Positions 5,433 to 18,460 of a stretch of DNA of 42,899 nt are shown here, one piece after another. Below the pieces are notes generated by a model, which had not been told where the DNA came from, did not search any database, and saw only the letters and a list, made by a program, of their open reading frames with translations. Each line of letters begins with the position of its first letter. Within the stretch, counting starts at the first letter, position 1. Where the stretch lies: positions 1-42,899 of the forward strand of contig CANQQJ010000030.1 of assembly GCA_947625905.1 (NCBI GenBank), read 5' to 3'. A program made the position numbers and the translations under genes. The DNA is from an uncultured Clostridia bacterium (GTDB lineage Bacteria > Bacillota > Clostridia > Monoglobales > Monoglobaceae).

Positions 5433-5505
5433 AGCTCTTTCTCCTTCCAACATAGCGTTCGGGGATATTCAATAAAATGATCCGCCGCCGCCCGTATTCC
5501 GAGCA

Positions 5506-5547
5506 AAAAAACAGGCGTTCGCCGCTCATTGAGCAGACGAACGCCTT
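5506..5547 (-). terminator. Promoter-proximal terminator-like hairpin (attenuator candidate) ahead of the glutamate synthase operon
   Basis: On the minus strand GGCGTTCG (5537-5544) pairs with CGAACGCC (5514-5521). The inner helix continues CTGCTC/GAGCGG around an AAT loop, and a run of seven T follows directly. It begins about 10-15 nt after the inferred transcription start, so nearly the whole early transcript is a terminator. No glutamine riboswitch signature (GGAAGUAGG) is seen. It is probably a conditional attenuator, but the factor is unknown. Confidence 0.65.
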
Positions 5548-5561
5548 TGTTCGGTTTATAC

Positions 5562-5590
5562 AGTATACCACGGTATGAGAAAAAAGTCAA
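5562..5590 (-). promoter_or_regulatory. Sigma-A promoter of the glutamate synthase operon
   Basis: Minus-strand TTGACT (5585-5590), a 17-nt spacer, and TATACT (5562-5567). The start of transcription would be near 5555. Confidence 0.8.
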
Positions 5591-5652
5591 CAAAAAAATT
5601 ACACAAAACAACCGCTGAAATGCGCGGCTTTTTTGTAAAGCCGTCTTCGACC

Positions 5653-5681
5653 TTGACATCATGCCGTATTTTATGTAAAAT
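5653..5681 (+). promoter_or_regulatory. Sigma-A promoter of the cyclophilin lipoprotein gene
   Basis: TTGACA (5653-5658), a 17-nt spacer, and TAAAAT (5676-5681). The leader to 5824 carries the palindrome GGGCGGATATCATCCGCCC (5734-5752), which resembles the repeat near position 90. The interval 5454-5823 holds only these two divergent promoters, the attenuator hairpin and this palindrome. Confidence 0.75.
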
Positions 5682-5823
5682 ATATATCACAGTCAAATTC
5701 GCAAAATAAACCGACGTATCCCTATCTTGCAGGGGCGGATATCATCCGCCCGCTCGGCAACTCATAACAGCCTTTTTTAAAATCAGGAAAAAATATAAAT
5801 TTATTAATACAGGAGGAAAACAA

Positions 5824-6486
5824 ATGAAACACACAAAGATCTTAAAACTGCTCTGTCTGATCGCCGCGCTCGCTCTGGCAGTGTCGGCGCTGTCAGCCTG
5901 CGGCTCGCAGAGCGCATCAAAATCAAGCGCCTCAAATGCCGAAAGCGCGCCGAAGACCGAGGGCAAGGCGTTCGAGTTTGACGGAAAAGTTCCCGATGAC
6001 GGCCCGGCCGTTAAGTTCACCATGAGCGACGGCGGAACATTCACCATAGTATGCGCGCCCGAGTACGCGCCCGAGACTGTCGAAAACTTCCTTAGTCTGG
6101 TAAAAAGCGGCTTTTACGACGGCCTGACTTTCCACCGCGTGATCGACGCGTTTGTGGCGCAGGGCGGCGACCCGGAAGGCAACGGCACGGGCGGCAGCGA
6201 CAAAAAGATCAAAGGCGAGTTTTACTCAAACGGCTTTGAACAAAACACGCTTCCCCACCTGCGCGGCAGCGTGGCGATGGCGCGTTCTCAGGCTCCCGAC
6301 TCCGCGTCCAGCCAGTTCTATATCTGCTATGACGACCTGCCGAATCTCGACGGCGAATACGCGGTGTTCGGACAAGTGACCGAGGGCATGGAGGTCGTGG
6401 ACGGATTCCTTGATGTTCCAAGGGACGCGCAGGGAATGCCCCAAACCCCGATAGTGATCGAAAAGGCCGAGGTCGTTTCGGAATAA
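5824..6486 (+). CDS. Lipoprotein peptidyl-prolyl cis-trans isomerase, cyclophilin type
   Basis: This 220-residue exported lipoprotein has a basic start MKHTKILK, a hydrophobic stretch and the lipobox LSAC (lipidated Cys near residue 26). A serine/alanine-rich linker follows, then a cyclophilin domain from about residue 58. Core motifs are APETVENFLSLVKSGFYDGL, TFHRVIDAFVAQGGDPEGNG, GSVAMARSQAPDSASSQFYI and YAVFGQVTEGMEVVD. The catalytic-type Arg in FHR and the QGG and FGQV elements are present. It probably assists folding of secreted proteins at the outer face of the membrane. A strong GGAGG ribosome binding site precedes the ATG. It is a single-gene transcript diverging from the glutamate synthase operon. 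Confidence 0.93.
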   Translation: MKHTKILKLLCLIAALALAVSALSACGSQSASKSSASNAESAPKTEGKAFEFDGKVPDDGPAVKFTMSDGGTFTIVCAPEYAPETVENFLSLVKSGFYDGLTFHRVIDAFVAQGGDPEGNGTGGSDKKIKGEFYSNGFEQNTLPHLRGSVAMARSQAPDSASSQFYICYDDLPNLDGEYAVFGQVTEGMEVVDGFLDVPRDAQGMPQTPIVIEKAEVVSE

Positions 6487-6505
6487 CACAACATTTTAAT
6501 ACAGA

Positions 6506-6533
6506 AAGACCCGAGCAGCGATGCTCGGGCCTT
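6506..6533 (+). terminator. Rho-independent terminator after the cyclophilin gene
   Basis: CCCGAGCA (6510-6517), GCGA loop, TGCTCGGG (6522-6529), flanked by AAAG and CCTTT that extend the pairing. The U tract is weak. Confidence 0.65.
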
Positions 6534-6641
6534 TCAAAGGGTTTTATTAATAAAACTCACCAATTCGGCCGCTGCGCCCGCACACGTCCGATGATCGTAT
6601 TATAACACAAAAATCACGCAAAAAATCGCTACACGGTAAAA

Positions 6642-6671
6642 CTGGTCTGTTTTTCGGAAAAAATAGACCGG
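6642..6671 (-). terminator. Probable terminator of the two-component operon
   Basis: On the minus strand GGTCT and AGACC arms flank an A/T-rich inner helix (TTTTT/AAAAA) and are followed by AGTTTTA. It lies just downstream of the kinase stop codon. Confidence 0.5.
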
Positions 6672-6692
6672 CAAAGCAAATCCGTCAAAAAT

Positions 6693-7973
6693 TTAATCAA
6701 TAAAAATCAAAATTTCGGATATAAAAACTCCGTTTTCATATTTTTGGACCGACTCGCCGTTGTATTTGTTCACGATGCGCTTTATATTTCTCAGGCCGAT
6801 ACCGTGAGAGTCTGCGTCCGCCTTTGACGTTTTTAAAGCGCCGCGTCCGATCTTGACCGGATTCGACGTGTTTTCAACGACGCAGAGCAGATAATTGTTT
6901 CTGTATTTCAGCGTCAGCCTTATCCGCTTTTCCGCCGCGGCGGCTCTCTCGCAGCCTTCAATGGCGTTGTCCAGCAGGTTGCCCAGGAGTATGACCGCGT
7001 CCGCATTGCTCAATTTCAGACCTTCCGGAACAGTTATTTTCTCACGAAAATCTATACCGAGGCGCCGCGCGGCGCTCTTTTTTCCGCTGACCAAGATATC
7101 TATCGCCGTGTTTCCGGTGTCGATCAGCCCGTCGTCGCCGTCAAAATCAAGATCCAGCTCGTCTATATAGCGGTCCGCCGCCTCGGGATCGCCGCGCCGT
7201 ATCAGCGATTGAATGACCCGCATATGGTTTATTATGTCATGTCTGACCGACATGATATGCTCTTCTTTTTTGTTGACCCCCGCGGTTTGGCGCCCCTGTC
7301 CGCCCACCTGCTCGCTCAGCGCGTCGCGCTCCGAGAGCAGCGCCGTCAGCTTATCGAAAAGATAAAACACAAGCAGGGTCGAATACATCACGGAGAGTGT
7401 CAGTATAACAAGAGAATACGAAAACTCCGCGTTGATACCGTAGAGATAGCGGGTGTAATGCAGAATAAAAATAATATTTACAACGGGGATACTGAGCAGC
7501 AATATCCAATAACTCACGCTGACTTTCGCGCGGCTTCTGTTAAAAAACAATCCCGCCGCTTTTACCATTATGGTCATCAGGATCATAACAATAACCAGCC
7601 CCATGATATTGTATATGCTTTTTTCTCTTACCATTTCCTCGATGGGGATCCCGAATGCCAATCCCGTCAAAATAAAAACAAAATTGGATATCGCTATAAA
7701 GAGCATATAAAGCATCGACATCAATAATTTTTTCAGCACGCTGTCTTTGTAAACGACGGTGCACATAAACGTCAAAAGGAGCATAACAACAAAATTCAAA
7801 ACAAACGACTCAACATAAGTATTATATATCCATGTCAGAACGCTGTATGCCGCGGCGACCGCCGCGCGCGCCAAAGCGCCGCCTCTGCGCGAATCAAGCA
7901 CCGCGTCGAAAAGCATATATGTAACTATTATCTCAAACACCAACGTTATCAAGTCAATCGCCGTATATATCAT
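6693..7973 (-). CDS. GHKL-family sensor histidine kinase (AgrC-like)
   Basis: This 426-residue membrane kinase has about six hydrophobic segments in residues 1-210. A short linker with a probable coiled coil leads to the H-box SVRHDIINHMRVIQSLI, with the phosphoacceptor His at 245. The N-box ILLGNLLDNAIEGCERA is near residue 325-340. A G-box, SHGIGLRNI, sits near the C terminus. This is the quorum-sensing/peptide-sensing class of kinases that pairs with LytTR regulators. It overlaps the upstream regulator gene by 20 nt, so the two are translationally coupled. No agrB or agrD homologue is visible nearby, so the ligand is unknown. Confidence 0.9.
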   Translation of the reverse strand: MIYTAIDLITLVFEIIVTYMLFDAVLDSRRGGALARAAVAAAYSVLTWIYNTYVESFVLNFVVMLLLTFMCTVVYKDSVLKKLLMSMLYMLFIAISNFVFILTGLAFGIPIEEMVREKSIYNIMGLVIVMILMTIMVKAAGLFFNRSRAKVSVSYWILLLSIPVVNIIFILHYTRYLYGINAEFSYSLVILTLSVMYSTLLVFYLFDKLTALLSERDALSEQVGGQGRQTAGVNKKEEHIMSVRHDIINHMRVIQSLIRRGDPEAADRYIDELDLDFDGDDGLIDTGNTAIDILVSGKKSAARRLGIDFREKITVPEGLKLSNADAVILLGNLLDNAIEGCERAAAAEKRIRLTLKYRNNYLLCVVENTSNPVKIGRGALKTSKADADSHGIGLRNIKRIVNKYNGESVQKYENGVFISEILIFID

Positions 7974-8682
7974 AATTATCTCCGCTCACATACTCAAGAA
8001 AATCCTTTTTGAACTGCTGCCTTCTCGACTTGCTGACCGGTATATGCTCTCCACCGCTCAGTATTACCTCTTTTGCGTTAAAGGTCTCCACCTTGTCGAG
8101 ATTAACGACGTACGACTTATGGGGAGACGAAAAGCCGCGCGACCCGAGCCGATCGGAAATGCCTTTCAGCGTGCCGTATATTTCAAAATTCCCGCTTTCG
8201 GTGCCAATCAGCACTTTTTTCGCGCTGCTCGCAATATATATCACACGCCCGCGCGGGATCTTTTTGTACTCGCCGCGGCATTTGAAAACAAGCTCTTTTT
8301 TCATGTCGCAGGACTTTCGAATAACTTCCTCAAAGTCATCGCGCAGGACTTCATACTCGACCGGCTTGACCCAAAAATTCGCGGGCGCGGGCTTAAAGCA
8401 GTCGTAAACATACTTCGTGTGTGACGTCATGAAAAAAATAGCGGCTTTTTTGTCCGCCTCGCGTATTTTTAAAGCGGTCTCGATGCCCGACAGCTCTTTG
8501 AGCTCGATGTCAAGTATCAAAATATCAAAAAATACTCCGCCGCGGGAATAATGCTCAACAAGCTGCTCGCCCGAATAGAATACCTCCCATTCGATATCCT
8601 CGTGAGATTCCTTGAATCTGAGCAAATATTCCTCTATTTTATTTACCCAAACATTCTCGTCGTCACAAACAGCAACACGCAC
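7954..8682 (-). CDS. LytTR-family response regulator (AgrA-like)
   Basis: This DNA-binding response regulator has about 242 residues. The N-terminal receiver contains VAVCDDE, the phosphoacceptor region ILILDIELKELSG, and FFMTSHTKY with the conserved Thr/Ser and Lys positions nearby. The C-terminal LytTR domain (from about residue 135) shows FKCRGEYKKIPRGRVIYIAS, FSSPHKSYVVNLDKVE and IPVSKSRRQQFKKDFLEYV. The GTG at 8682 is preferred because AAAGGG lies 8 nt upstream and the product then begins VRVAVCDDE. A GTG at 8691 is also open but overlaps that site. It is the first gene of a two-gene operon with its own strong promoter. Confidence 0.92.
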   Translation of the reverse strand: MRVAVCDDENVWVNKIEEYLLRFKESHEDIEWEVFYSGEQLVEHYSRGGVFFDILILDIELKELSGIETALKIREADKKAAIFFMTSHTKYVYDCFKPAPANFWVKPVEYEVLRDDFEEVIRKSCDMKKELVFKCRGEYKKIPRGRVIYIASSAKKVLIGTESGNFEIYGTLKGISDRLGSRGFSSPHKSYVVNLDKVETFNAKEVILSGGEHIPVSKSRRQQFKKDFLEYVSGDNYDIYGD

Positions 8683-8736
8683 ATGCCTCACCCTTTGTTC
8701 AAGTACTAAAGTAATTGCTGAAAGCTATAATATTAA

Positions 8737-8765
8737 ATTATAATAGCGTCCGCGAAAAATGTCAA
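8737..8765 (-). promoter_or_regulatory. Sigma-A promoter of the LytTR/GHKL two-component operon
   Basis: Minus-strand TTGACA (8760-8765), a 17-nt spacer, TATAAT (8737-8742): a consensus promoter. It lies between the terminator of the phage-like cassette and the regulator, so the two units are transcribed separately. Confidence 0.85.
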
Positions 8766-8775
8766 TAATTAATTC

Positions 8776-8814
8776 AAAAAACGCCTCCGAATTATGATCC
8801 TGAAGGCGTTTTTA
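8776..8814 (-). terminator. Terminator at the end of the phage-like structural cassette
   Basis: AAAAACGCCT (8777-8786) and AGGCGTTTTT (8804-8813) form a 10-bp stem with T tracts on both strands. It lies immediately after the last cassette gene (stop at 8823). Only the minus-strand direction has an upstream gene. Confidence 0.8.
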
Positions 8815-8822
8815 TGAGCGCT

Positions 8823-10043
8823 TTACATGCCGAGCATGTTCTGAAGGATCAATTGGTTTATGCGCTCCTGCGTAAGGCGGTTGCCGAGGCGCTCACTCTC
8901 AAGCTGCGCGCGGAGCATATCGTTATAGTAGCCCATATAGATCCCCTGCATAATATTCTCGTTCGCGGCGTTTTCAAGCCCCAGCATGTTGGACTGCGAC
9001 TTCTGACCGTTCAGCACGTCGGTCCAGTTGTAATCCTGGCTGTTCTGTCTCTCTGTCCAGTTGTAGTCCTGAGAGTTCAGCGCCTCCGCCCAGCGCCGCT
9101 CGAAAGCGTTTTGGTCCCTCGCGGCATTGCTCGAAAGCGAGGAATTGGCGTTGCTTATCGTCTTGTTGTTCGCGGCGTACGCGTTGCCCCAAACCGTGTC
9201 GTAAAGCCCGATCATGCTGCCAAGCAGCTCCGCGTCGCGGCTCAGTCCGTCCGAGTACCTCTCGTACGCCTCCCGCGCCAGCTCGGGTATCATTTCCGAA
9301 AGGCGGCTCATGTAATACTGCTGAGCCAGTCCCGCCGCGGTTACCGCGGCCGAATTCGAATAGCCTCCGGTCATGGCGGAATACGCCGCCATCGTGTCCT
9401 CGGCCGCGCGCTCGGCATTGAGCGTATATTGATCGCGGTAAGCCCCGTACACCGGGTCGGTCTCGGGGTCGTACGAAAATTCCTTTCGGTTCATGATCGA
9501 ATTACTGAGGCTCTCGATACGCGGCAGATACATATCGTTGTACTGCTCGAGGAGCTCGTTGGGCGAAACAGCGCCTATAGAGTTAACATAATTGTTGACC
9601 GCCGACCGCACGTCGTTTTGAAAGGCCCACGCCTTGCCGTCGTCGTCTATATACAATGTGTCAAGCGGTATTCCGCCGATCGTTACTACTCCGTTCGAGT
9701 ATCCCAGCGCATCGGCGGACAGACCGTATCTGCCCGCGTAGCCGCTGTAGGCGTCCGAGACTCTGACGACAGGATTGCTCGTGTTTGAATAAAACTGAGC
9801 CACGCTGCGCTGTATATCCGCGGGCATCGAGAAAGATATTCCCGCCTGCTCGTTTACGTACTGCGGCTTCATCAGTTCTCTGCCGCCCAGAGTGACCGTT
9901 TTGTTCGCCTCATTGTACCCTATCAGATTGTTGTCGATGCCCATGTTGCGCAGAGTGGCGCGGACGCCGACCATGCCGTCGGGGCGCCGCGGGACCTCGA
10001 CCTTGATCTGATTTGTTTTTGTTCTACCTGATGTCTTCGACAT
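8823..10043 (-). CDS. Phage-like structural protein, possible internal/ejection protein
   Basis: This 406-residue protein is the last gene of the capsid cassette. Residues about 20-65 (GVRATLRNMGIDNNLIGYNE, then KTVTLGGRELM), and again about 140-165 (GVVTIGGIPLDTLYIDDDGK), resemble the short beta repeats of copper-amine-oxidase N-terminal/stalk-type domains. The middle and C-terminal parts are helical, with an Ala/Gly/Ser-rich stretch SAMTGGYSNSAAVTAAGLAQ followed by predicted long helices. A tandem repeat NSQDYNWTERQ / NSQDYNWTDVL sits near residue 340-360. I do not recognise a specific family. Position after the tail nozzle and the helical Ala-rich composition suggest an internal or ejection-type virion protein. 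That is inference. It overlaps the nozzle gene by 20 nt and has GGAGG upstream. Confidence 0.6.
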   Translation of the reverse strand: MSKTSGRTKTNQIKVEVPRRPDGMVGVRATLRNMGIDNNLIGYNEANKTVTLGGRELMKPQYVNEQAGISFSMPADIQRSVAQFYSNTSNPVVRVSDAYSGYAGRYGLSADALGYSNGVVTIGGIPLDTLYIDDDGKAWAFQNDVRSAVNNYVNSIGAVSPNELLEQYNDMYLPRIESLSNSIMNRKEFSYDPETDPVYGAYRDQYTLNAERAAEDTMAAYSAMTGGYSNSAAVTAAGLAQQYYMSRLSEMIPELAREAYERYSDGLSRDAELLGSMIGLYDTVWGNAYAANNKTISNANSSLSSNAARDQNAFERRWAEALNSQDYNWTERQNSQDYNWTDVLNGQKSQSNMLGLENAANENIMQGIYMGYYNDMLRAQLESERLGNRLTQERINQLILQNMLGM

Positions 10044-11715
10044 TTGTTTTACCTCCTGTGTAGGTTATCATTTCTATATCATGGACGACCGCTTTTCCCT
10101 CGCCCTCCAGCATGATGCGGAAGCTGTCGCACTTTTTGAGCCTTATCGGGATGCGATGCACCGAGAAGCCCTTCTTCCCTTTTATCTCGCCGCGGACGGT
10201 GAAATCCTCATCGTCGGCCGCGAAGCTCAGCGTCACCTTTGTGTCGGACTCGGACTCAAGACGGATATAGACGGCGTTCACGCTCTTAAAATCAAAATCG
10301 TCAAGCGTGAATTTTTTGGATACCACGCACCATCTTATTATCTCGTCCGCTTCCTCGTCTCCCAGCAGGTACACGTCGGTCCCGGTCGCGCCGTACAATC
10401 TCTCGCCCAGGCGGACAAAGTCAACAAATTTCGTGTCGTCCTCTCTGTGCCAGACGCCCATATCGGGATCATACACCAGCAGCGACGTTTTGCCGCTTTT
10501 GTCCGCGGCGCAGGCGTAGTAGCGCCTGCCGTCGGTGCCGCTCTTGCACGATGTGAACATGGTCTTGATCGGGCGGCTTATCCTCTCGGGCTCGCCGCCT
10601 GTATACTCATAAAACCCGTCAGCCGCCATGTAGTAGAGGACGCCGCCGACCTCGGCGACGCTCTTTCCGTCAAGAGCGCCGCTAAGAGTCTGCTTCGGCA
10701 CCGAGAAATTGGTCGGCGAATCGCCGTACACATGATGGATATAGTCGCGTTTGAACGCCACGACCGATGTCCTGTAGCTGACGATCCCGGTAAAGGCGCC
10801 GGGCGTGCCGATCTCGGCGAACCAGCTGTCGTCGGCGAGACCTCTGAACGACGAAAAGTTGAAGCAGTCGCCAAGCTTTGAAGCGAAAATATACTCGCCG
10901 TTTTCCGAAGCCCCGAACAGGCGGTTGTTGTGCACGCAGGCGCAGGCGATATCGGGAATATAGACCTCGATCTTGACCTCCGCGCTCTCGTGTCCGTTCT
11001 CAAAAAAAGCGTAGCCGCCCTTTTTGTTATACAGCAGCAGCTCCAGATCGCTCACGCCGGCCTCTTTGACGATCGCGCTGACGATGCTCTCGTCGGAAAC
11101 GACGTCCTTTTTGCTGTCAAGCACGCGCGTGTTGTTTTGAGCCTTGGAGCAGCCGGATATCACAAGGCTGTCGCCGGGCCTGAACAGCAAGTCAAACCGC
11201 GCGCTGTCGTCACGGCTTATCCTCGCTCTGTATCTGCCGCTTATCTCGTCATAGTAGGAGTAAAACGAGGCATTCGTCACGGTCGTGCTTCTTCCCATAG
11301 GCCTGAGTTCGCTCTTGATCTCCCCGTCCTCCGGGTCGGGCAGATAACGGTAGTACACCTTATCGGGAAAAATACAGATGTTGCCGCCGAAATCCACGAT
11401 CGACTTTTCGCCCTTGCTCAGCGCGATATTGTCTATCCGTCTGCCCCTATAATAAAAGCTTCCGTCCGCGGCGCCCGTGAACGAGTCAAGGCCGCCCGGG
11501 TCGTACTCCGGAAGAGCAAGCGCGGTGATGCCCTTCTGCGAAGCGATATGCCGTCTGGGTTTTCGGGGCGCCAGACAGGGCGCCGCGTCGGATGACATGT
11601 TGAGCATTTCCGCGAGCTGTCTGTCGTCGATCTTTTCTCTTTGGTCGTATCCGAAAAAACTCAGGATATCAACTTTTTTGTTTTTGCTCTTTTGAGCCGC
11701 GATCGGCATATACAT
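10024..11715 (-). CDS. Podovirus-like tail nozzle / stabilisation protein (T7 gp12 / P22 gp10-like beta-propeller)
   Basis: This 563-residue protein has a beta-propeller-like pattern. The segment CVHNNRLFGASENGEYIFAS, KLGDCFNF, DSWFAEIGTPGAFTGIVSYR, then VVAFKRDYIHHVYGDSPTNF matches the characteristic core of tubular tail proteins of short-tailed phages. The C-terminal region ends in a beta-sandwich-like part (FDFKSVNAVYIRLESESDTK ... VHRIPIRLKKCDSFRIMLEG). In virions such proteins plug and extend the neck below the adaptor. The ATG at 11715 has GGAGG 8 nt upstream. The frame is intact, with no internal stops. The family is inferred from motif resemblance only. Confidence 0.68.
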   Translation of the reverse strand: MYMPIAAQKSKNKKVDILSFFGYDQREKIDDRQLAEMLNMSSDAAPCLAPRKPRRHIASQKGITALALPEYDPGGLDSFTGAADGSFYYRGRRIDNIALSKGEKSIVDFGGNICIFPDKVYYRYLPDPEDGEIKSELRPMGRSTTVTNASFYSYYDEISGRYRARISRDDSARFDLLFRPGDSLVISGCSKAQNNTRVLDSKKDVVSDESIVSAIVKEAGVSDLELLLYNKKGGYAFFENGHESAEVKIEVYIPDIACACVHNNRLFGASENGEYIFASKLGDCFNFSSFRGLADDSWFAEIGTPGAFTGIVSYRTSVVAFKRDYIHHVYGDSPTNFSVPKQTLSGALDGKSVAEVGGVLYYMAADGFYEYTGGEPERISRPIKTMFTSCKSGTDGRRYYACAADKSGKTSLLVYDPDMGVWHREDDTKFVDFVRLGERLYGATGTDVYLLGDEEADEIIRWCVVSKKFTLDDFDFKSVNAVYIRLESESDTKVTLSFAADDEDFTVRGEIKGKKGFSVHRIPIRLKKCDSFRIMLEGEGKAVVHDIEMITYTGGKTNVEDIR

Positions 11716-11727
11716 AATTTCCGCCTC

Positions 11728-12504
11728 CTACCAATAATTTTTGAAACGCGCCAAATCGTTCAGCGGGTTTCGCGTTTTGTAGTCCCTTTTGTACTCATCA
11801 TAGATGTTGTTGTACTGCATCATGTGGCTCGAGTATGTGTCGTAATCGTGCTGATAAAGGGCGATCTTCGCCAGCAGATATTCGATGTACATGCGGTCAT
11901 AGGGGGCCTCCGCCTCGGTCTCATCGTCGATCACGCGCTTTATCACAAGCCTGGCGCCGCTCTCCGGAGTAAAGATATCATCGGTCAGCCGCACCCTCTC
12001 GCCGTCGTTTTCATAGACATAGGTACGCGCGGGCTCAAACTCCGGATCGTCGGGCATCTCGCAGATTATCTCATCGCCCTGCTCAAAGGGCAGCATCCAC
12101 CCCTCGATCACGCTCTCGCTTATGTTGAACTCGCCCTCGATGCAGATATCGCGCACCTCGCCCGGAGTTGTGAGATAAATTATCTTGAGCAGCTTGGGCG
12201 AGCCGAAAGTCAGACCGAACCTGCGGCGGAGGTCGGCGCCCGCCAGATACGGCAGGCTTCTGAGGTCCGCCTTGGTCAGCGGTCTGCCTCCGAGATAAGC
12301 CGCCTCTATATTGTCGATCGAGATATCCTCGGGCAGCTCCAGCTCCTCGCGGCAGGTCACAACGGTCTCGATGATGTCGTAATACTTTTTGACGTGGCGG
12401 CGCAGGGACAGCGACACCTCGCCGCACCAGCCCAGCTTTTCCTCAAAGTCAAAGCTGTTGGGGCTGAGAGCGTCCGCCGCCTCTATCGCTTTTAAAAGCT
12501 TCAA
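11728..12504 (-). CDS. Probable phage head-tail adaptor (neck) protein
   Basis: This 258-residue protein starts with TTG at 12504, with GGTGAT just upstream. The C-terminal helical segment DRMYIEYLLAKIALYQHDYD followed by NNIYDEYKRDYKTRNPL resembles the helices of podovirus adaptor/gp4-like connector proteins that insert under the portal ring. The middle region (about 100-200) looks beta-rich. It lies between the capsid genes and the nozzle gene, exactly where an adaptor is expected. The identification rests on position and helix pattern, not on a decisive motif. Confidence 0.55.
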   Translation of the reverse strand: MKLLKAIEAADALSPNSFDFEEKLGWCGEVSLSLRRHVKKYYDIIETVVTCREELELPEDISIDNIEAAYLGGRPLTKADLRSLPYLAGADLRRRFGLTFGSPKLLKIIYLTTPGEVRDICIEGEFNISESVIEGWMLPFEQGDEIICEMPDDPEFEPARTYVYENDGERVRLTDDIFTPESGARLVIKRVIDDETEAEAPYDRMYIEYLLAKIALYQHDYDTYSSHMMQYNNIYDEYKRDYKTRNPLNDLARFKNYW

Positions 12505-12517
12505 TCAAATCACCGTC

Positions 12518-12760
12518 CTACGCCTTCAGGCTGTCAATATATTTTTCGGCGGCGAGCTCCTGCCTGTGGGCGCGTTCCACCGCCAAGGCGACCTTTCGGG
12601 GGACCGTTACGGTCTCGCCGCGCTTTATCTGGTAATTTGTGCCGTTGACCGTCACGGTCAGGTCGTCCTTGTTCTTCCAGTTGTCCTTGACCAGCATAAG
12701 CGGCACCGGCTCGTTATAGAACGCCTCAAGCTCCGCCTCGTATTTCTGTTTTTTTGTCAT
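12518..12760 (-). CDS. Small conserved protein of the capsid cassette
   Basis: This 80-residue protein starts MTKKQKYEAELEAFYNEPVP and has a central beta-rich stretch (LTVTVNGTNYQIKRGETVTV) and a helical C terminus (ALAVERAHRQELAAEKYIDS). Small proteins of this kind are commonly encoded directly after N4-gp56 type capsid genes in prophages. The function is not established. GGAGG lies 8 nt before the ATG, and the gene is 13 nt upstream of the adaptor gene. Confidence 0.7.
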   Translation of the reverse strand: MTKKQKYEAELEAFYNEPVPLMLVKDNWKNKDDLTVTVNGTNYQIKRGETVTVPRKVALAVERAHRQELAAEKYIDSLKA

Positions 12761-12777
12761 TTGTCCCGCCTCCCGAT

Positions 12778-14010
12778 TTAGTAGCTGCAGGTGGTCTCGA
12801 CTCTCACCATGAACTCGGGAGAAAGGATCTCCGCCGTCTGAGTGGCCTTCCAGCCGACGGTGCTTCTCTGGTCGAGAGGATCGCCCGTGCCGGCGCTGCC
12901 CTTCTGCTTGATGATGGTCTCAAGACCGCCGCCCGCTATATTTGTAACGCCGTAGGCGTTCTGACCGATAAACAGCGTGGAGTAAATATCTCTGCCGTCC
13001 TTGCCCGCGCCCGCGGGATAGATTATCGAGCCCGCCGTCACTGTGGGGCTCAGAGCTTCGGTCACCGTGATCTTCGCCGCTCCGGGCTCACCCGCCGTCG
13101 CGGACGTGATCGTGTAGTCAAAGCCGTTTATCTGGACCGCTTTGCCGCTCAGCGCCTCCGCGTCGCTCGACGCGATCTCCTCGGCCACCGTGATGACCTT
13201 GCCCGAAACCTCAGCCACGGTCAGGCTCTCGGGATCGCCGATCGTGATGTTTTCCATCTTGCGCAGAGGCTCGGCTCTGAAAATTTTCGCCTCGGTTGAC
13301 TCGACGAACACAACGCCGTGGATCTTGCCGATCGTGCCGTTGTACCAGTCCTTGGGGTCCACGTTCTGCTTAACGGCCTTCCATTCGGGGTCGTTTGTCA
13401 GATCGTTCGCCACATCGGGGTGTATGATCGCCACATAGCAGCCGTCCTTGATGGGCTGGGCGTTGTTGCGCTTGAGCGTGGCGACCGCTCTCTTGACCGC
13501 GGCCACGCTGAGATAATCGTTGCCGCTCGCCTGGCCGCCCACAAGCACGTTTCTGTCGGCCTTGCCGTCACCGTACTGCACATTGGTGCCGGCGTTGATC
13601 TTCTCGCGGATGACCGTGTCAAGAGTTCTTCCGGCCTGGTCACCCAGCACGTTCTGTGTCTCGACAATAACGTTGTCGATAGCCGAAAGCGTCAGCATAT
13701 CCGACAGAGTGACATAATCGCCGTACTGATCGACCGTTGACTCAACGGTGGTCACGTTCAGCCGGTTGCCCTTGGGCGTAACGCCCTCGGTCAGGGGCTT
13801 CATCGCCTTGGGCAGGGGGCTGAATCTGCGGAACTCGATGGTCTTGCCCGAGCCCTTGGGGATCGGCTTGCTCTGGCCGAACTGGGCATGGACCAGCTTT
13901 GGAGAGGCGAAGCGGATCATCTGCCTGTCGTAATACGCCTTCATCTCCGGGGTAACGTTGTTGCCCGCGCGGTTCGTGGCCGTTGTCTGGGTGTTATAAT
14001 TAATACTCAT
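12778..14010 (-). CDS. N4-gp56 family major capsid protein
   Basis: This 410-residue HK97-fold type capsid protein is intact. N-terminal motifs are TPEMKAYYDRQMIRFASPKL and GSGKTIEFRRFSPLPKAMKP followed by LTEGVTP. The core has YGDYVTLSDMLTLSAIDNVI, LDTVIREKINAGTNVQYGDG and YVAIIHPDVANDLTNDPEWK. The C terminus shows GGGLETIIKQKGSAGTGDPL then DQRSTVGWKATQTAEIL. Residues about 265-335 look like an inserted beta-rich domain (VQINGFDYTITSATAGEPGA). The start ATG follows GGAGG. With the scaffold-like gene upstream and neck/tail genes downstream it forms a minimal podovirus-like shell module. Confidence 0.88.
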   Translation of the reverse strand: MSINYNTQTTATNRAGNNVTPEMKAYYDRQMIRFASPKLVHAQFGQSKPIPKGSGKTIEFRRFSPLPKAMKPLTEGVTPKGNRLNVTTVESTVDQYGDYVTLSDMLTLSAIDNVIVETQNVLGDQAGRTLDTVIREKINAGTNVQYGDGKADRNVLVGGQASGNDYLSVAAVKRAVATLKRNNAQPIKDGCYVAIIHPDVANDLTNDPEWKAVKQNVDPKDWYNGTIGKIHGVVFVESTEAKIFRAEPLRKMENITIGDPESLTVAEVSGKVITVAEEIASSDAEALSGKAVQINGFDYTITSATAGEPGAAKITVTEALSPTVTAGSIIYPAGAGKDGRDIYSTLFIGQNAYGVTNIAGGGLETIIKQKGSAGTGDPLDQRSTVGWKATQTAEILSPEFMVRVETTCSY

Positions 14011-14051
14011 TAAAAATACCTCCGTTTAAAATTTTTTGTTTTTTCCTCGGA

Positions 14052-14627
14052 CTAAAACGAGATCTTCTCGCCGCGGCGGACGCGTCTTATGATGTCGTCG
14101 ACCTCTTCGTCGCTCATGTCCTCGGGGTTCTTTTTCACCATGCCGCTGCCGCCCGGCTTCGATGTCCCGTTCTCCGAGATCCTCTTTTCGGGCTCCTCGG
14201 GCTTTGCGCGGCCGTTTTCCGCATTATCCTCGCCGCGGTGGGCAAGATAGCAGGCGTCCTCGACGCTGAGCCCGTTGCCCCACAGATAATTGCAGAACTT
14301 AGGATCGCGAAGCTCGCGCCTGATGTCAAAGTCGGGATTCTTTCTCGAGAACTCCCTTACCTGCGCGTCGATCTCCGCGGTCCTTTTGGCTATGTAAGCC
14401 TCAAGCTGCGGATCGGACGCACCGCTCATGCCCCGAGCGGGCATCGGCATACCGTACTGCGCGGCCGCGGCGGACGGCATCATTCCGGGCATCATTTCCC
14501 GCATGGGCGCCGCTCCCGGCTGCGCCTGCATGGGATAGCCCTGAGGCTGAGCCGGATATCCGCCGCGCGCGGCCTCGGGATACTCCCGCTCCTCCGGAAT
14601 CTGTTTTCTGTTTCCAAATCCAAGCAT
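14052..14627 (-). CDS. Scaffold-like protein upstream of the major capsid gene
   Basis: This 191-residue protein has a disordered N terminus rich in Pro, Gln, Met and Ala (about residues 10-70: QPQGYPMQAQPGAAP and similar). A conserved-looking helical block NPDFDIRRELRDPKFCNYLW and LSVEDACYLAHRGED (about 98-130) follows, then an acidic/basic tail ending DEEVDDIIRRVRRGEKISF. The layout and the position just ahead of the capsid gene suggest a scaffolding protein. Similarity to a named family is not certain. AAAGGAG precedes the ATG. A TATAAT-like -10 exists at about 14668-14673 on the minus strand, but no good -35 was found. Confidence 0.6.
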   Translation of the reverse strand: MLGFGNRKQIPEEREYPEAARGGYPAQPQGYPMQAQPGAAPMREMMPGMMPSAAAAQYGMPMPARGMSGASDPQLEAYIAKRTAEIDAQVREFSRKNPDFDIRRELRDPKFCNYLWGNGLSVEDACYLAHRGEDNAENGRAKPEEPEKRISENGTSKPGGSGMVKKNPEDMSDEEVDDIIRRVRRGEKISF

Positions 14628-14709
14628 AATTATGCTCCTTTCATAATAATTTCGCGCCGTTTTCCCGGCACAATTTTATTATAAACGGACTTGAGTGCCG
14701 CGTGGTGCC

Positions 14710-14749
14710 AACGTAGTGATTAGTGATTAGCGAATAGCGAATACGCGGA
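14710..14749 (-). repeat. Interspersed repeat family 1, minus-strand copy
   Basis: On the minus strand it reads CCGCGTATTCGCTATTCGC followed by TAATCACTAATCACTACGTT. It lies about 80 nt upstream of the scaffold-like gene. A GC-rich imperfect hairpin (TTCGCGGGTAAG ... ) precedes the tail, to about 14785. Confidence 0.75.
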
Positions 14750-14812
14750 GTAAACCCGGCTAAAAACCCTCGGCCTTACCCGCGAACGTAGTAATTGACG
14801 TAAAATGGGGCT

Positions 14813-14855
14813 GTAGGGGACGGCGCACTCGACGTCCCGGCTCCCCCCTCGGGGA
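14813..14855. repeat. Interspersed repeat family 3 copy
   Basis: The block GTAGGGGACGGCGCACTCGA through CGTCCCGGCTCCCCCCTCGGGG is shared, in either orientation, with 201-284 and 25051-25094. Confidence 0.75.
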
Positions 14856-14925
14856 TAATCAGCAAGCTTGCTTGCGGGTTCAAAGCTATCTTTCAAAATT
14901 GCTTGCAATTTTGACCAAGAGCTTC
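14855..14925. repeat. Interspersed repeat family 2 copy A
   Basis: This approximately 70-nt block contains GCAAGCTTGCTTGC and CAAAATTGCTTGCAATTTTG palindromes and ends at AAGAGCTTC. It is almost identical to 24851-24918 and, truncated, to 25094-25147. The rest of 14926-15054 carries further palindromic fragments (for example GCGGCCGGAGCCGC) with no gene. Confidence 0.8.
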
Positions 14926-15054
14926 ATTAGAGCTGTCTGCGGCCGGAGCCGCGAAGCGGGTTCGTGGCACTAAAGCATTTCTTTTTATCGGATAAACGAG
15001 GCCACAAATCATTAACGTGAGCGGATATGGGGCAAAGCCCGACTGAGGGGGGAA

Positions 15055-15142
15055 TCCTAATCACTATTCGCTAATCGCTAATCACTACGTTGACTGAGGG
15101 GGATGCTTAGTTCCTAGTCCCTATTCTCTAGTCCCTACGTTA
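15055..15142 (+). repeat. Interspersed repeat family 1, two adjacent tails
   Basis: One tail copy (15055-15091, ending CTAATCGCTAATCACTACGTT) is followed by a diverged copy (15107-15142, CTAGTCCCTATTCTCTAGTC then CCTACGTTA). Both point toward the end of the ANTAR gene. Confidence 0.7.
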
Positions 15143-15186
15143 AAAGCGCTATATTTAAATGACAAGTCATTTAAATATAGCGCTTT
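15143..15186 (-). terminator. 21-bp perfect hairpin overlapping the ANTAR gene stop codon
   Basis: Arms 15143-15163 and 15166-15186 are perfectly complementary (AAAGCGCTATATTTAAATGA...) around a 2-nt loop. The stop codon (15171-15173) and the last codons of the ANTAR gene lie inside the stem. TTTTAACG follows on the minus strand. It is probably the operon terminator. Confidence 0.65.
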
Positions 15187-17302: not shown

Positions 17303-17929
17303 TTACGAAAAATACTCAACCAGCACGTTGACCGCGTCATGCCCTATCATGATCTCGCCCAGCTCGTTGAGCCTGCCGTGGGATATCAGCGTGCGGTTCT
17401 GCTTGTCTGAAAACTCGAGCATTATTTTTTCAACGCTCATCATTATTCTTATGTCGTCGGGCGCCAGCAGCATATAATAACAGCCGTCGCACTTATACAA
17501 AACGCTGTCGCCCGAAAAATCTCTATGTATAGCTTCGGCCGCGCGGCACACGTTGTCGAAATCGCCGAAGCGGAATATGCGGCAGCTTTTTATTTTGCTT
17601 TCCGCGGTCTCGGGATAGAGACAGCGTTTTTTGATCCTTCCTCTGTAGGAGCAGTTGGCTACCGCGGCGTTTAAGTCCTTGTCGCTGAAAATCCTGGTTA
17701 TCAGCATCCCGAATCCGTCGGTATGTCCGGGGATTGCCTCAACAAACAGCTTGGCGCCGTCGATGCTGAACCTAACCTCCTCCTGCGCAAGGCGTATGGC
17801 GGTTCTGAACATCTCCCTTACCTCGGGCGAATCGGACGCCATGTTGCCGGCGCTTATGTTCCACTCCCGCGCCTCGTCGGTGTCGATCAGAACCTTTATT
17901 TTATTTTCGTTAATTTTTTCGATTCTCAT
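17303..17929 (-). CDS. mecA: MecA/NegA-family adaptor protein
   Basis: This 208-residue protein has the MecA layout. The N-terminal substrate-recognition part has MRIEKINENKIKVLIDTDEA, then REMFRTAIRLAQEEVRF and KLFVEAIPGHTDGFGMLITR. The C-terminal Clp-binding-type domain follows a linker (KSCRIFRFGDFDNVCRAAEA, CDGCYYMLLAPDD, LISHGRLNELGEIMIGHDAV). MecA proteins deliver substrates to ClpC/ClpP and regulate competence and stress proteins in Firmicutes. Monocistronic: its own promoter and terminator flank it. CAGGAG lies before the ATG. Confidence 0.88.
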   Translation of the reverse strand: MRIEKINENKIKVLIDTDEAREWNISAGNMASDSPEVREMFRTAIRLAQEEVRFSIDGAKLFVEAIPGHTDGFGMLITRIFSDKDLNAAVANCSYRGRIKKRCLYPETAESKIKSCRIFRFGDFDNVCRAAEAIHRDFSGDSVLYKCDGCYYMLLAPDDIRIMMSVEKIMLEFSDKQNRTLISHGRLNELGEIMIGHDAVNVLVEYFS

Positions 17930-18195: not shown

Positions 18196-18210
18196 ATGAA
18201 CATAAAATAA

Positions 18211-18399
18211 TTCCCTGCGTTGTGCGTAATTATGACATTAATGTAAAACCAACAAAATTATTAAGGGATTTTAATCTTCGGGGGCGGCGCACATGCCTCA
18301 CACCCTTCGGGGTCGTCCAGTGGACTTGTAATGTTTCCGAGAAAATCCCACCTGGTTTCCAGGTTTTTACTTTAGTCATTCTACGGCAATCGCGGGGTT
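18211..18399 (+). ncRNA. ssrS: Probable 6S RNA
   Basis: A roughly 185-nt untranslated segment whose ends pair: CCCTGCG (18213-18219) with CGCGGGG (18391-18397), with adjacent TTG / GGCAAT in the manner of 6S RNA termini (CCYUGYRUUG ... GCAAUCGCGGG). The interior forms further helices, for example CCACCTGG and CCAGGTTTTT. It has its own promoter, high local G+C within AT-rich flanks, and no good ribosome binding site. 6S RNA binds sigma-A RNA polymerase. Identification is by size, end motifs and context; I could not run a covariance model. Confidence 0.72.
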
Positions 18400-18460
18400 T
18401 ATTTATGTCGGCAAATAATTTGTTAAAATCGCTGTATTTTTACAAATTTATTTAAAACCC

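Follow-up and report, generated by a model that had tools for sequence, protein, structure and literature searches.

The DNA analysed here, below called the window, is a stretch of 42,899 nucleotides from an uncultured Clostridia bacterium of the family Monoglobaceae (assembly GCA_947625905.1, contig CANQQJ010000030.1), and our subject is a block of six phage-type genes at positions 8,823 to 14,627. We consider it likely that this block is the capsid-neck-tail operon of a podovirus-derived, vertically inherited, short-tailed particle that resembles a gene transfer agent (GTA), is dispersed over several loci, and is known here from its genes alone. Such a particle would most likely pack and move the bacterium's own DNA. 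At least three unlinked loci hold the genes assigned to it, namely the capsid operon, a packaging operon, and a tail fibre gene, and the same promoter element precedes an endolysin-holin pair and a small membrane protein gene in sister species.

A previous sequence-only reading of the window had described the six genes as an intact structural subset and had offered a domesticated particle, a satellite that borrows packaging, or a gene-transfer or protein-delivery shell as explanations. Its central observation is borne out, in that the capsid and tail genes are real and intact. Domestication has also gained support, and the gene-transfer particle, one of several options at the time, is now the best reading. 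The notion of a self-contained six-gene shell is not supported, as portal, TerS-like, TerL, and fibre genes lie at other loci and a single promoter element is common to both operons and the fibre gene. Terminase and portal genes, which that reading proposed to seek elsewhere in the genome, were both found on another contig (G000:C43).

Two unlinked operons and a common promoter element

At this second locus of the genome of the window (G000; other G numbers denote relatives, g1 to g9 the genera of the family, and L numbers fetched loci or contigs), a portal gene (phrog_156) and a TerL gene (phrog_2) lie 1.9 kb apart, and a third locus in G000 carries the tail fibre gene. Hundreds of kb separate the three loci in the single-contig genome G002 (2,757,678 bases), where the packaging locus lies at 1.634-1.639 Mb, the capsid gene at 1.909 Mb, and the fibre gene at 2.396 Mb; in G020 the two main loci share one contig at a distance of about 11 kb. 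The contiguity expected of a functional temperate prophage was not found, as cellular genes flank both main loci, those beside the packaging locus being SecD/SecF and RuvX. Two flank genes are common to g3 and G019, a genome of g6. Among the neighbours of the cassette that were tested, there is no terminase, portal, integrase, or lysis gene.

Aligned upstream regions revealed the element TTGGCAC-N5-GGCACT-N10-TAYAATAAAAT ahead of the capsid and packaging operons with identical spacing. In the window it reads TTGGCACCACGCGGCACTCAAGTCCGTTTATAATAAAAT (14,673-14,711, minus strand), and its counterpart before the packaging operon lies at G000:C43:5372-5410. A strict pattern allowing at most two mismatches returned exactly two sites in the 2.96 Mb of G000, both perfect and one before each operon; across the genus sample of 12 genomes, it returned 13 sites in 7 genomes and none with the reversed control. 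A relaxed pattern yielded 37 sites in 10 of the 12 genomes, as compared with 2 control sites. By downstream gene, these comprise 8 capsid operons, 10 packaging operons, 3 fibre genes, 4 Amidase_3-type endolysins (4/4 read), 5 small membrane proteins (5/5 read), and 4 winged-helix or Lin1244-like genes, while 3 (G005:C103, G000:C26, and G011:C23) are without an assigned phage-type gene. Further sites in sister species thus hold endolysin and holin genes, with an SPP1-type holin read ahead of the endolysin in two of the four promoter-linked lysis loci; one holin and one endolysin from these loci were examined with Pfam. The promoter-linked small membrane protein, which is of the same kind as that between fibre and holin in G001, had no Pfam match at the cut-off and is presumably XhlA-like.

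A promoter matrix built from 18 genus sites was tested on genera outside the building set. There, 9 of 10 tail-gene upstreams scored at a level that no more than 7 of the 863 other open reading frame (ORF) upstreams attained, and the highest null scores include such promoter sites themselves. Ahead of the capsid operon in g5, g6, and g9, the promoter was clear in three of nine rows (G017, G019, and G020). Among fibre upstreams, 8 of 20 rows stood at 5/863 or better, some rows being second fibre-like ORFs or misplaced starts. The fetched family loci held 42 distinct sites scoring at least 12 (44 rows, two duplicates), a number that is not a genome-wide rate because the loci were chosen for particle genes; 40 of them precede the scaffold-like gene A, the tail-like gene, or a fibre gene. 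Phage-like and outgroup loci totalling 1,326,380 bases held one site with such a score. The two remaining family sites, both in g6 (L110:5496, plus strand; L131:17271, minus strand), precede a gene for 332-333 amino acids (aa) without a Pfam family at the cut-off.

The motif TGGCAC resembles the -24 box of sigma-54 promoters. A sigma-54 promoter was considered and dropped, given a GG-to-GC spacing of 9 rather than 10 nt and a TAYAAT box at fixed distance.

Distribution, selection, and descent

Domestication rather than decay is indicated by genes that are conserved and open in six genera, by low ratios of nonsynonymous to synonymous substitution rates (dN/dS), and by congruent trees. Within the family sample (38 genomes of 9 genera, 15 of high quality), the capsid protein was found in 24 genomes, including 14 of the 15 high-quality ones, and in 6 of the 9 genera. 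The portal was found in 25 genomes of the same six genera, and neither protein was found in g4, g7, or g8 (assemblies of 0.9-1.8 Mb, 68-93% complete). The order sample of 51 genomes likewise contained the capsid in 24, and it was not found in any of the 13 that belong to other families. Matches to phrog_2 occur in 37 of the 38 family genomes because other prophages carry terminases too; orthologues of the packaging-operon TerL were drawn from 23 genomes. The carriers include the named isolate Ructibacterium gallinarum DSM 107454 and the single-contig genome G002, so DNA exchange in the gut is directly testable.

The family-type capsid gene is present once per genome; G019 has in addition a second, distant copy (35%) on a phage-like contig. 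Outside G000, 21 genomes of five genera carry the protein at 71-97% identity along almost its entire length, and a shorter form occurs in the two g3 genomes. The mostly frameshifted orthologues that the sequence-only reading had named as a sign of decay were not seen, as the capsid orthologues are open and contain no internal stops. In the genus itself, 11 of 12 genomes carry the protein with one match each (87-97% identity in ten relatives). The twelfth, G005 (88% complete, 180 contigs), does contain the portal. A near-perfect promoter element lies at G005:C103:7279-7317, 124 nt before a contig end, and the capsid operon of this genome may begin in an assembly gap.

Over all 13 genes, dN/dS was 0.04-0.17 (median of 10 pairs of the five closest genomes), with values of 0.041 for TerL, 0.039 for the portal, 0.060 for the capsid, 0.073 for the nozzle, and 0.171 for the scaffold-like protein; the six window genes range over 0.05-0.17, and all 13 are under purifying selection. 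Synonymous divergence (dS) of the 13 genes, at 0.20-0.42, is host-like (rpoB 0.247, glnA 0.280). Distances in seven gene trees correlate with those of rpoB (r 0.73-0.92), with 0 of 999 shuffles as high, and the portal tree has 18 of 21 splits in common with rpoB. The capsid and packaging loci agree with each other at r 0.967 and in 14 of 18 splits across 21 genomes. Presence mapped on the rpoB tree (30 of the 38 genomes) requires two changes, or one in 42% of bootstrap trees. The family capsids form one clade with those of contigs L151, L152, and L155, with a value of 99 in the Shimodaira-Hasegawa-like approximate likelihood ratio test (SH-aLRT), apart from 70 other capsid proteins labelled as phage or phage-like by origin or context. 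These comparisons show that the two main operons have been inherited vertically and kept by purifying selection.

Terminase and portal genes immediately linked in close relatives had been proposed as a sign of recent deletion in G000, and here the outcome is mixed. In g3 and in L151 and L152, two contigs without a family assignment, the portal adjoins the scaffold and capsid genes, but the copies are open and no TerL lies beside this block within the stretch examined. Because of both features, the arrangement looks like an earlier stage of splitting and not like a recent deletion in G000. L151 and L152 carry the unsplit head locus among genes that are cellular-looking by eye. On balance, we favour the view that an ancient short-tailed GTA is common to this entire gut Clostridia family (Monoglobus, Ructibacterium, and relatives) and, since L151 and L152 carry the unsplit locus, that it is perhaps older than the family. 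Its genes would occupy at least four sites united into one regulon by a single promoter element, and the steps of its taming, in which the portal left the head locus, TerS lost its DNA-binding domain, and the operons moved apart, would be readable in living relatives.

Genes of the capsid-neck-tail operon

All six genes of the window lie on the minus strand. Gene A (14,052-14,627) encodes a scaffold-like protein of 191 aa with orthologues from 23 family genomes and a dN/dS of 0.17; at other loci of this capsid family, the same position is held by a protein of about 170-360 aa. Gene B (12,778-14,010; 410 aa) encodes the major capsid protein, which belongs to the N4-gp56 family (NCBIfam TIGR04387, E 7.5e-81, 271.9 bits against a cut-off of 60; phrog_1357) and has a dN/dS of 0.06. 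Between genera it is far better conserved than its neighbours (about 80% versus 40-50%), and it contains an insert near residues 247-334 that is absent in g3. Gene C (12,518-12,760; 80 aa) encodes a small, presumably virion-associated protein matching phrog_15239 (7.3e-19, function unknown), and phages have an equivalent gene in the same position. Gene D (11,728-12,504; 258 aa, TTG start; phrog_12105) is presumed to encode a head-tail adaptor and sits between the capsid and nozzle genes as its phage counterparts do; a sequence search of solved structures gave it weak, implausible matches and no convincing relative.

Gene E (10,024-11,715; 563 aa) encodes the tail nozzle, and the podovirus fold of P22 gp10 and T7 gp12 spans nearly its whole chain. 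The product of gene F (8,823-10,043; 406 aa) is helix-rich and presumably an internal or DNA-transfer virion protein. Profile matches to it are found downstream of gene E in many phage-like loci, and its structural model (predicted local distance difference test, pLDDT, of 65, poor past residue 308) matched unnamed Podoviridae proteins in BFVD at E 5e-7. Capsid, nozzle, and gene F product had no match in the sequence search against solved structures. Where contigs reach, gene order in both operons is kept across g1, g5, g6, and g9, and differs in g2 and g3.

The leader of the operon starts with a hairpin (14,652-14,673, minus strand) that no shuffle equalled in G000 (0/200) and that is still formed by the altered sequences of G009 and G007 (1/200 and 4/200 shuffles as good). 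A rho-independent terminator follows gene F (8,771-8,815, minus strand; -16.9 kcal/mol, z -5.2). Positions 14,628-15,170 form an AT-richer island (48% GC compared with 57% in the cassette) with short repeats that resemble those ahead of the packaging operon. The length and content of this island vary among close species, and its edge holds the shared promoter. The cassette also occurs on L003 (IMGVR_UViG_3300013414_001080), filed as viral in IMG/VR, with a capsid 88% identical; a gene resembling a chromosomal peptidyl-prolyl isomerase follows it there, and this contig is probably a bacterial fragment.

Packaging operon, terminase, and proposed mechanism

The packaging operon, with coordinates on L102, comprises genes for a tail-like protein of 284 aa (5467-6321; the top phrog match has no known function, and a tail family matches at 0.001), the portal (6370-8058; P22_portal, 1.7e-26), a 93-aa zinc-finger-like protein (8961-9242; weak match, below cut-off), a 144-aa late-regulator-like protein (9284-9718; phrog_36, 1.1e-5), a 78-aa TerS-like protein without a family (9702-9938), and TerL (9963-11357; phrog_2). 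An S24 repressor gene (8055-8783; Peptidase_S24, 1.9e-20) lies on the strand opposite to the operon. By sequence, the portal matched solved structures at no better than E 0.018. In G012 and some other genomes, the packaging locus is interrupted by contig ends.

The TerL motifs Walker A, DE, FDFG, ADPA, and DHLYD are kept in 23 of 23 genomes. The TerS of G012 has an N-terminal helix-turn-helix (HTH; PF13022 7.7e-10, Terminase_5 4.3e-6), and its C-terminal part aligns with the short TerS-like proteins of other genomes (59-174 aa in 23 genomes, median 78, the longest in G017). Position and alignment with the G012 protein identify the 78-aa protein as TerS-like. Those of G000 and G002 had no Pfam match and no detectable DNA-binding domain, as in the GTA type of TerS, which lacks the N-terminal HTH. 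For the GTA of Rhodobacter capsulatus (RcGTA), the authors link the lack of this domain in TerS to random packaging, in the passages of PMC6854486 drawn on here.

The S24 repressor retains the Ser motif in 20 of 21 sequences, the Lys/Arg position in all 21, and an AAAG or AAAE cleavage motif in 18. A TTGACA/TATAAT-type promoter between the repressor and zinc-finger genes is conserved in 8 aligned genomes. Because of the S24 domain and this promoter, we propose that a cleavable repressor of CI/LexA type would hold down a divergent promoter making the late regulator, TerS, and TerL, and would be cleaved in a few cells, with damage to DNA as the probable trigger. All TTGGCAC-N5-GGCAC promoters might then be activated together, either by the phrog_36-type regulator or by the winged-helix protein that itself stands behind such a promoter; the former is suggested by phage locus L019 and its near copies, in which a relative of this regulator lies directly upstream of the TerS and TerL genes. 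Empty heads would assemble, and the HTH-less TerS would give TerL no sequence preference, so that any chromosomal DNA could be packed through the portal. Nozzle and fibre would complete the short tail, holin and endolysin would burst the cell, and sister cells would receive the DNA. The random packaging, the release, and the transfer are steps that we infer.

The winged-helix protein (weak HTH_36 match) or Lin1244-like protein, about 171-215 aa long, occurs behind the TTGGCAC-N5-GGCAC promoter in four genus genomes (for example L352:127-711 and L365) and is a possible master activator. A pattern for a common C-terminal tail matched none of the four loci, and the likeness among these proteins was judged by eye.

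Alternative explanations

Several observations weigh against the interpretation given above. Most genomes sampled are fragmented assemblies, and several tests were run on loci picked for holding particle genes. The capsid tree has only 11 of 20 splits in common with rpoB, and the stepwise picture of splitting comes from few genomes, namely G012 (260 contigs), the two g3 genomes, and the contigs L151 and L152. With regard to the promoter, G001 and G002 have no site at two mismatches or fewer (scores of 16-18 of 24), g2 and g3 show no match ahead of the capsid operon, and the element is weak or absent there at fixed spacing in G018, G021, G034, G035, G036, and G037. GGCAC-type repeats are visible before this operon in G021, G034, G035, and G037, and the contig of G036 ends within gene A. 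TerS was Pfam-tested in 3 of 23 genomes and aligned in at least 14, the G020 repressor is without the serine motif, the cleavage motif is unmatched in 3 of 21 repressors, and which regulator acts on the promoter is conjecture. The fibre locus of G000 ends in genes that appear cellular by eye. A search for the phrog_199 holin matched 17 of 38 genomes, 5 of the 15 high-quality ones, and none in G000, so the holin is not a conserved part. No holin or endolysin was located in G000, where endolysin was not searched for genome-wide.

Among other explanations, a tamed podovirus that packs host DNA but kills competitors instead of delivering genes has the best standing, although we regard it as unlikely. 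PBSX of Bacillus subtilis, a defective and chromosomally fixed element, likewise fills its particles with host DNA and carries a comparable lysis set of XhlA, SPP1-type holin, and amidase, and in the present system the lysis genes and the long, varied fibres have the promoter element in common. PBSX occupies one contiguous locus and forms a long-tailed particle. Killing would not call for a complete packaging motor held under strong purifying selection, as seen in the TerL dN/dS, and the family-wide congruence of trees also argues against a killer.

It is very unlikely that the particle has ceased to carry DNA and serves as a shell for protein delivery or storage. The short scaffold-like gene and the position of the capsid operon apart from the packaging genes would fit such a shell, but the ATPase and nuclease motifs of TerL are kept in every genome compared, and the portal and TerL genes, which have the promoter of the capsid operon, have evolved in step with it.

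It is highly improbable that the block is a phage satellite or a mobile island dependent on a helper for packaging. The structural cassette is small and no integrase was found among the neighbours tested, but the copy number of one per genome, the congruence with rpoB, and a flank common to g3 and G019 oppose mobility; borrowing is unnecessary because the genome has its own motor of portal, TerS-like protein, and TerL. Equally improbable is a decaying prophage with recently lost genes, which the lack of nearby genes for terminase, portal, integrase, and lysis might suggest, since the genes missing here are present elsewhere and the capsid and its neighbours remain open and under selection.

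Relation to known systems

We return to the GTA-like particle. RcGTA likewise has dispersed loci and vertical inheritance but is siphovirus-like. The tail of the G000 system is instead of podovirus type, with a P22 gp10/T7 gp12 nozzle. In the absence of an N-terminal HTH from TerS, the two systems are also alike (PMC6854486, passages as above). Among podoviruses with this capsid family, Bacillus phage Pascal (Pagevirus) has a capsid 41% identical over 74%, and its genes run from terminase through a portal-type protein and an unnamed gene to the capsid. An unbroken block of TerL, portal, scaffold, and capsid genes is present in Pascal and in most of the phage-like loci, whereas here these genes are split and the family capsids form their own clade.

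The definition excerpted from PMC9662315 requires genes derived from Caudoviricetes, vertical transmission, and particles that encapsidate at best part of their own genes; random host DNA is packed, a small subpopulation produces the particles, and DNA is delivered to recipients. Capsid, nozzle, portal, and TerL represent the Caudoviricete-derived structural and packaging genes here, and family-wide presence, dN/dS, host-like dS, and rpoB congruence amount to vertical transmission with the cellular genome. In the same excerpts, the GTAs with a formal classification come from Alphaproteobacteria or spirochaetes (PMC9662315).

The nearest known system in type, compared by its published description only, is the short-tailed FpGTA of the gut Clostridia species Faecalibacterium prausnitzii, published in 2026 (Borodovich et al., PMC12946183). 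As far as extracts of that publication describe it, the likeness extends to a podovirus-like particle, a Clostridia host, two distant operons, a TerS in which no DNA-binding domain is obvious, genes for portal, scaffold, and capsid, and fibre, holin, and endolysin genes apart from the head genes. In the same extracts, FpGTA I has TerS, TerL, portal, scaffold, and capsid in one operon and is described from one genus; in Monoglobaceae, by contrast, head and packaging genes are in separate operons, further loci are promoter-linked, and six genera are involved. No Faecalibacterium title occurred among 76 genome matches of the database search. The promoter-linked, multi-locus GTA-like system in six genera appears to differ in architecture from FpGTA, and the two may be of common lineage. 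Judged by the titles listed, literature on Monoglobus, Monoglobaceae, and Ructibacterium contained no prior account of such a particle, and PMC12946183 was the relevant match in the literature on GTAs in Clostridia.

These results add a second host family of gut Clostridia with a different GTA architecture. The promoter motif can serve as a tool for locating dispersed GTA parts genome-wide, the intermediates (G012 with an HTH in TerS, g3 with a linked portal) make the order of domestication testable, and chromosomal DNA exchange among such organisms in the gut becomes a testable question.

Additional observations

Two further terminase-bearing, phage-like loci were noted, one in G000 (C4, L132) and one in G019 (C18, L081); the latter is the phage-like contig on which the distant capsid protein, of the same family, adjoins portal and TerL. 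In the window, a perfect 12/12 sigma-70 promoter (8,737-8,765, minus strand) stands ahead of a LytTR-kinase pair just past the cassette terminator. Near the cassette on its other side, beyond glnA, lies the gene for MecA, a negative regulator of competence (17,303-17,929, minus strand), and the flank also holds a 6S RNA (18,209-18,402, plus strand; RF00013, 79.5 bits).

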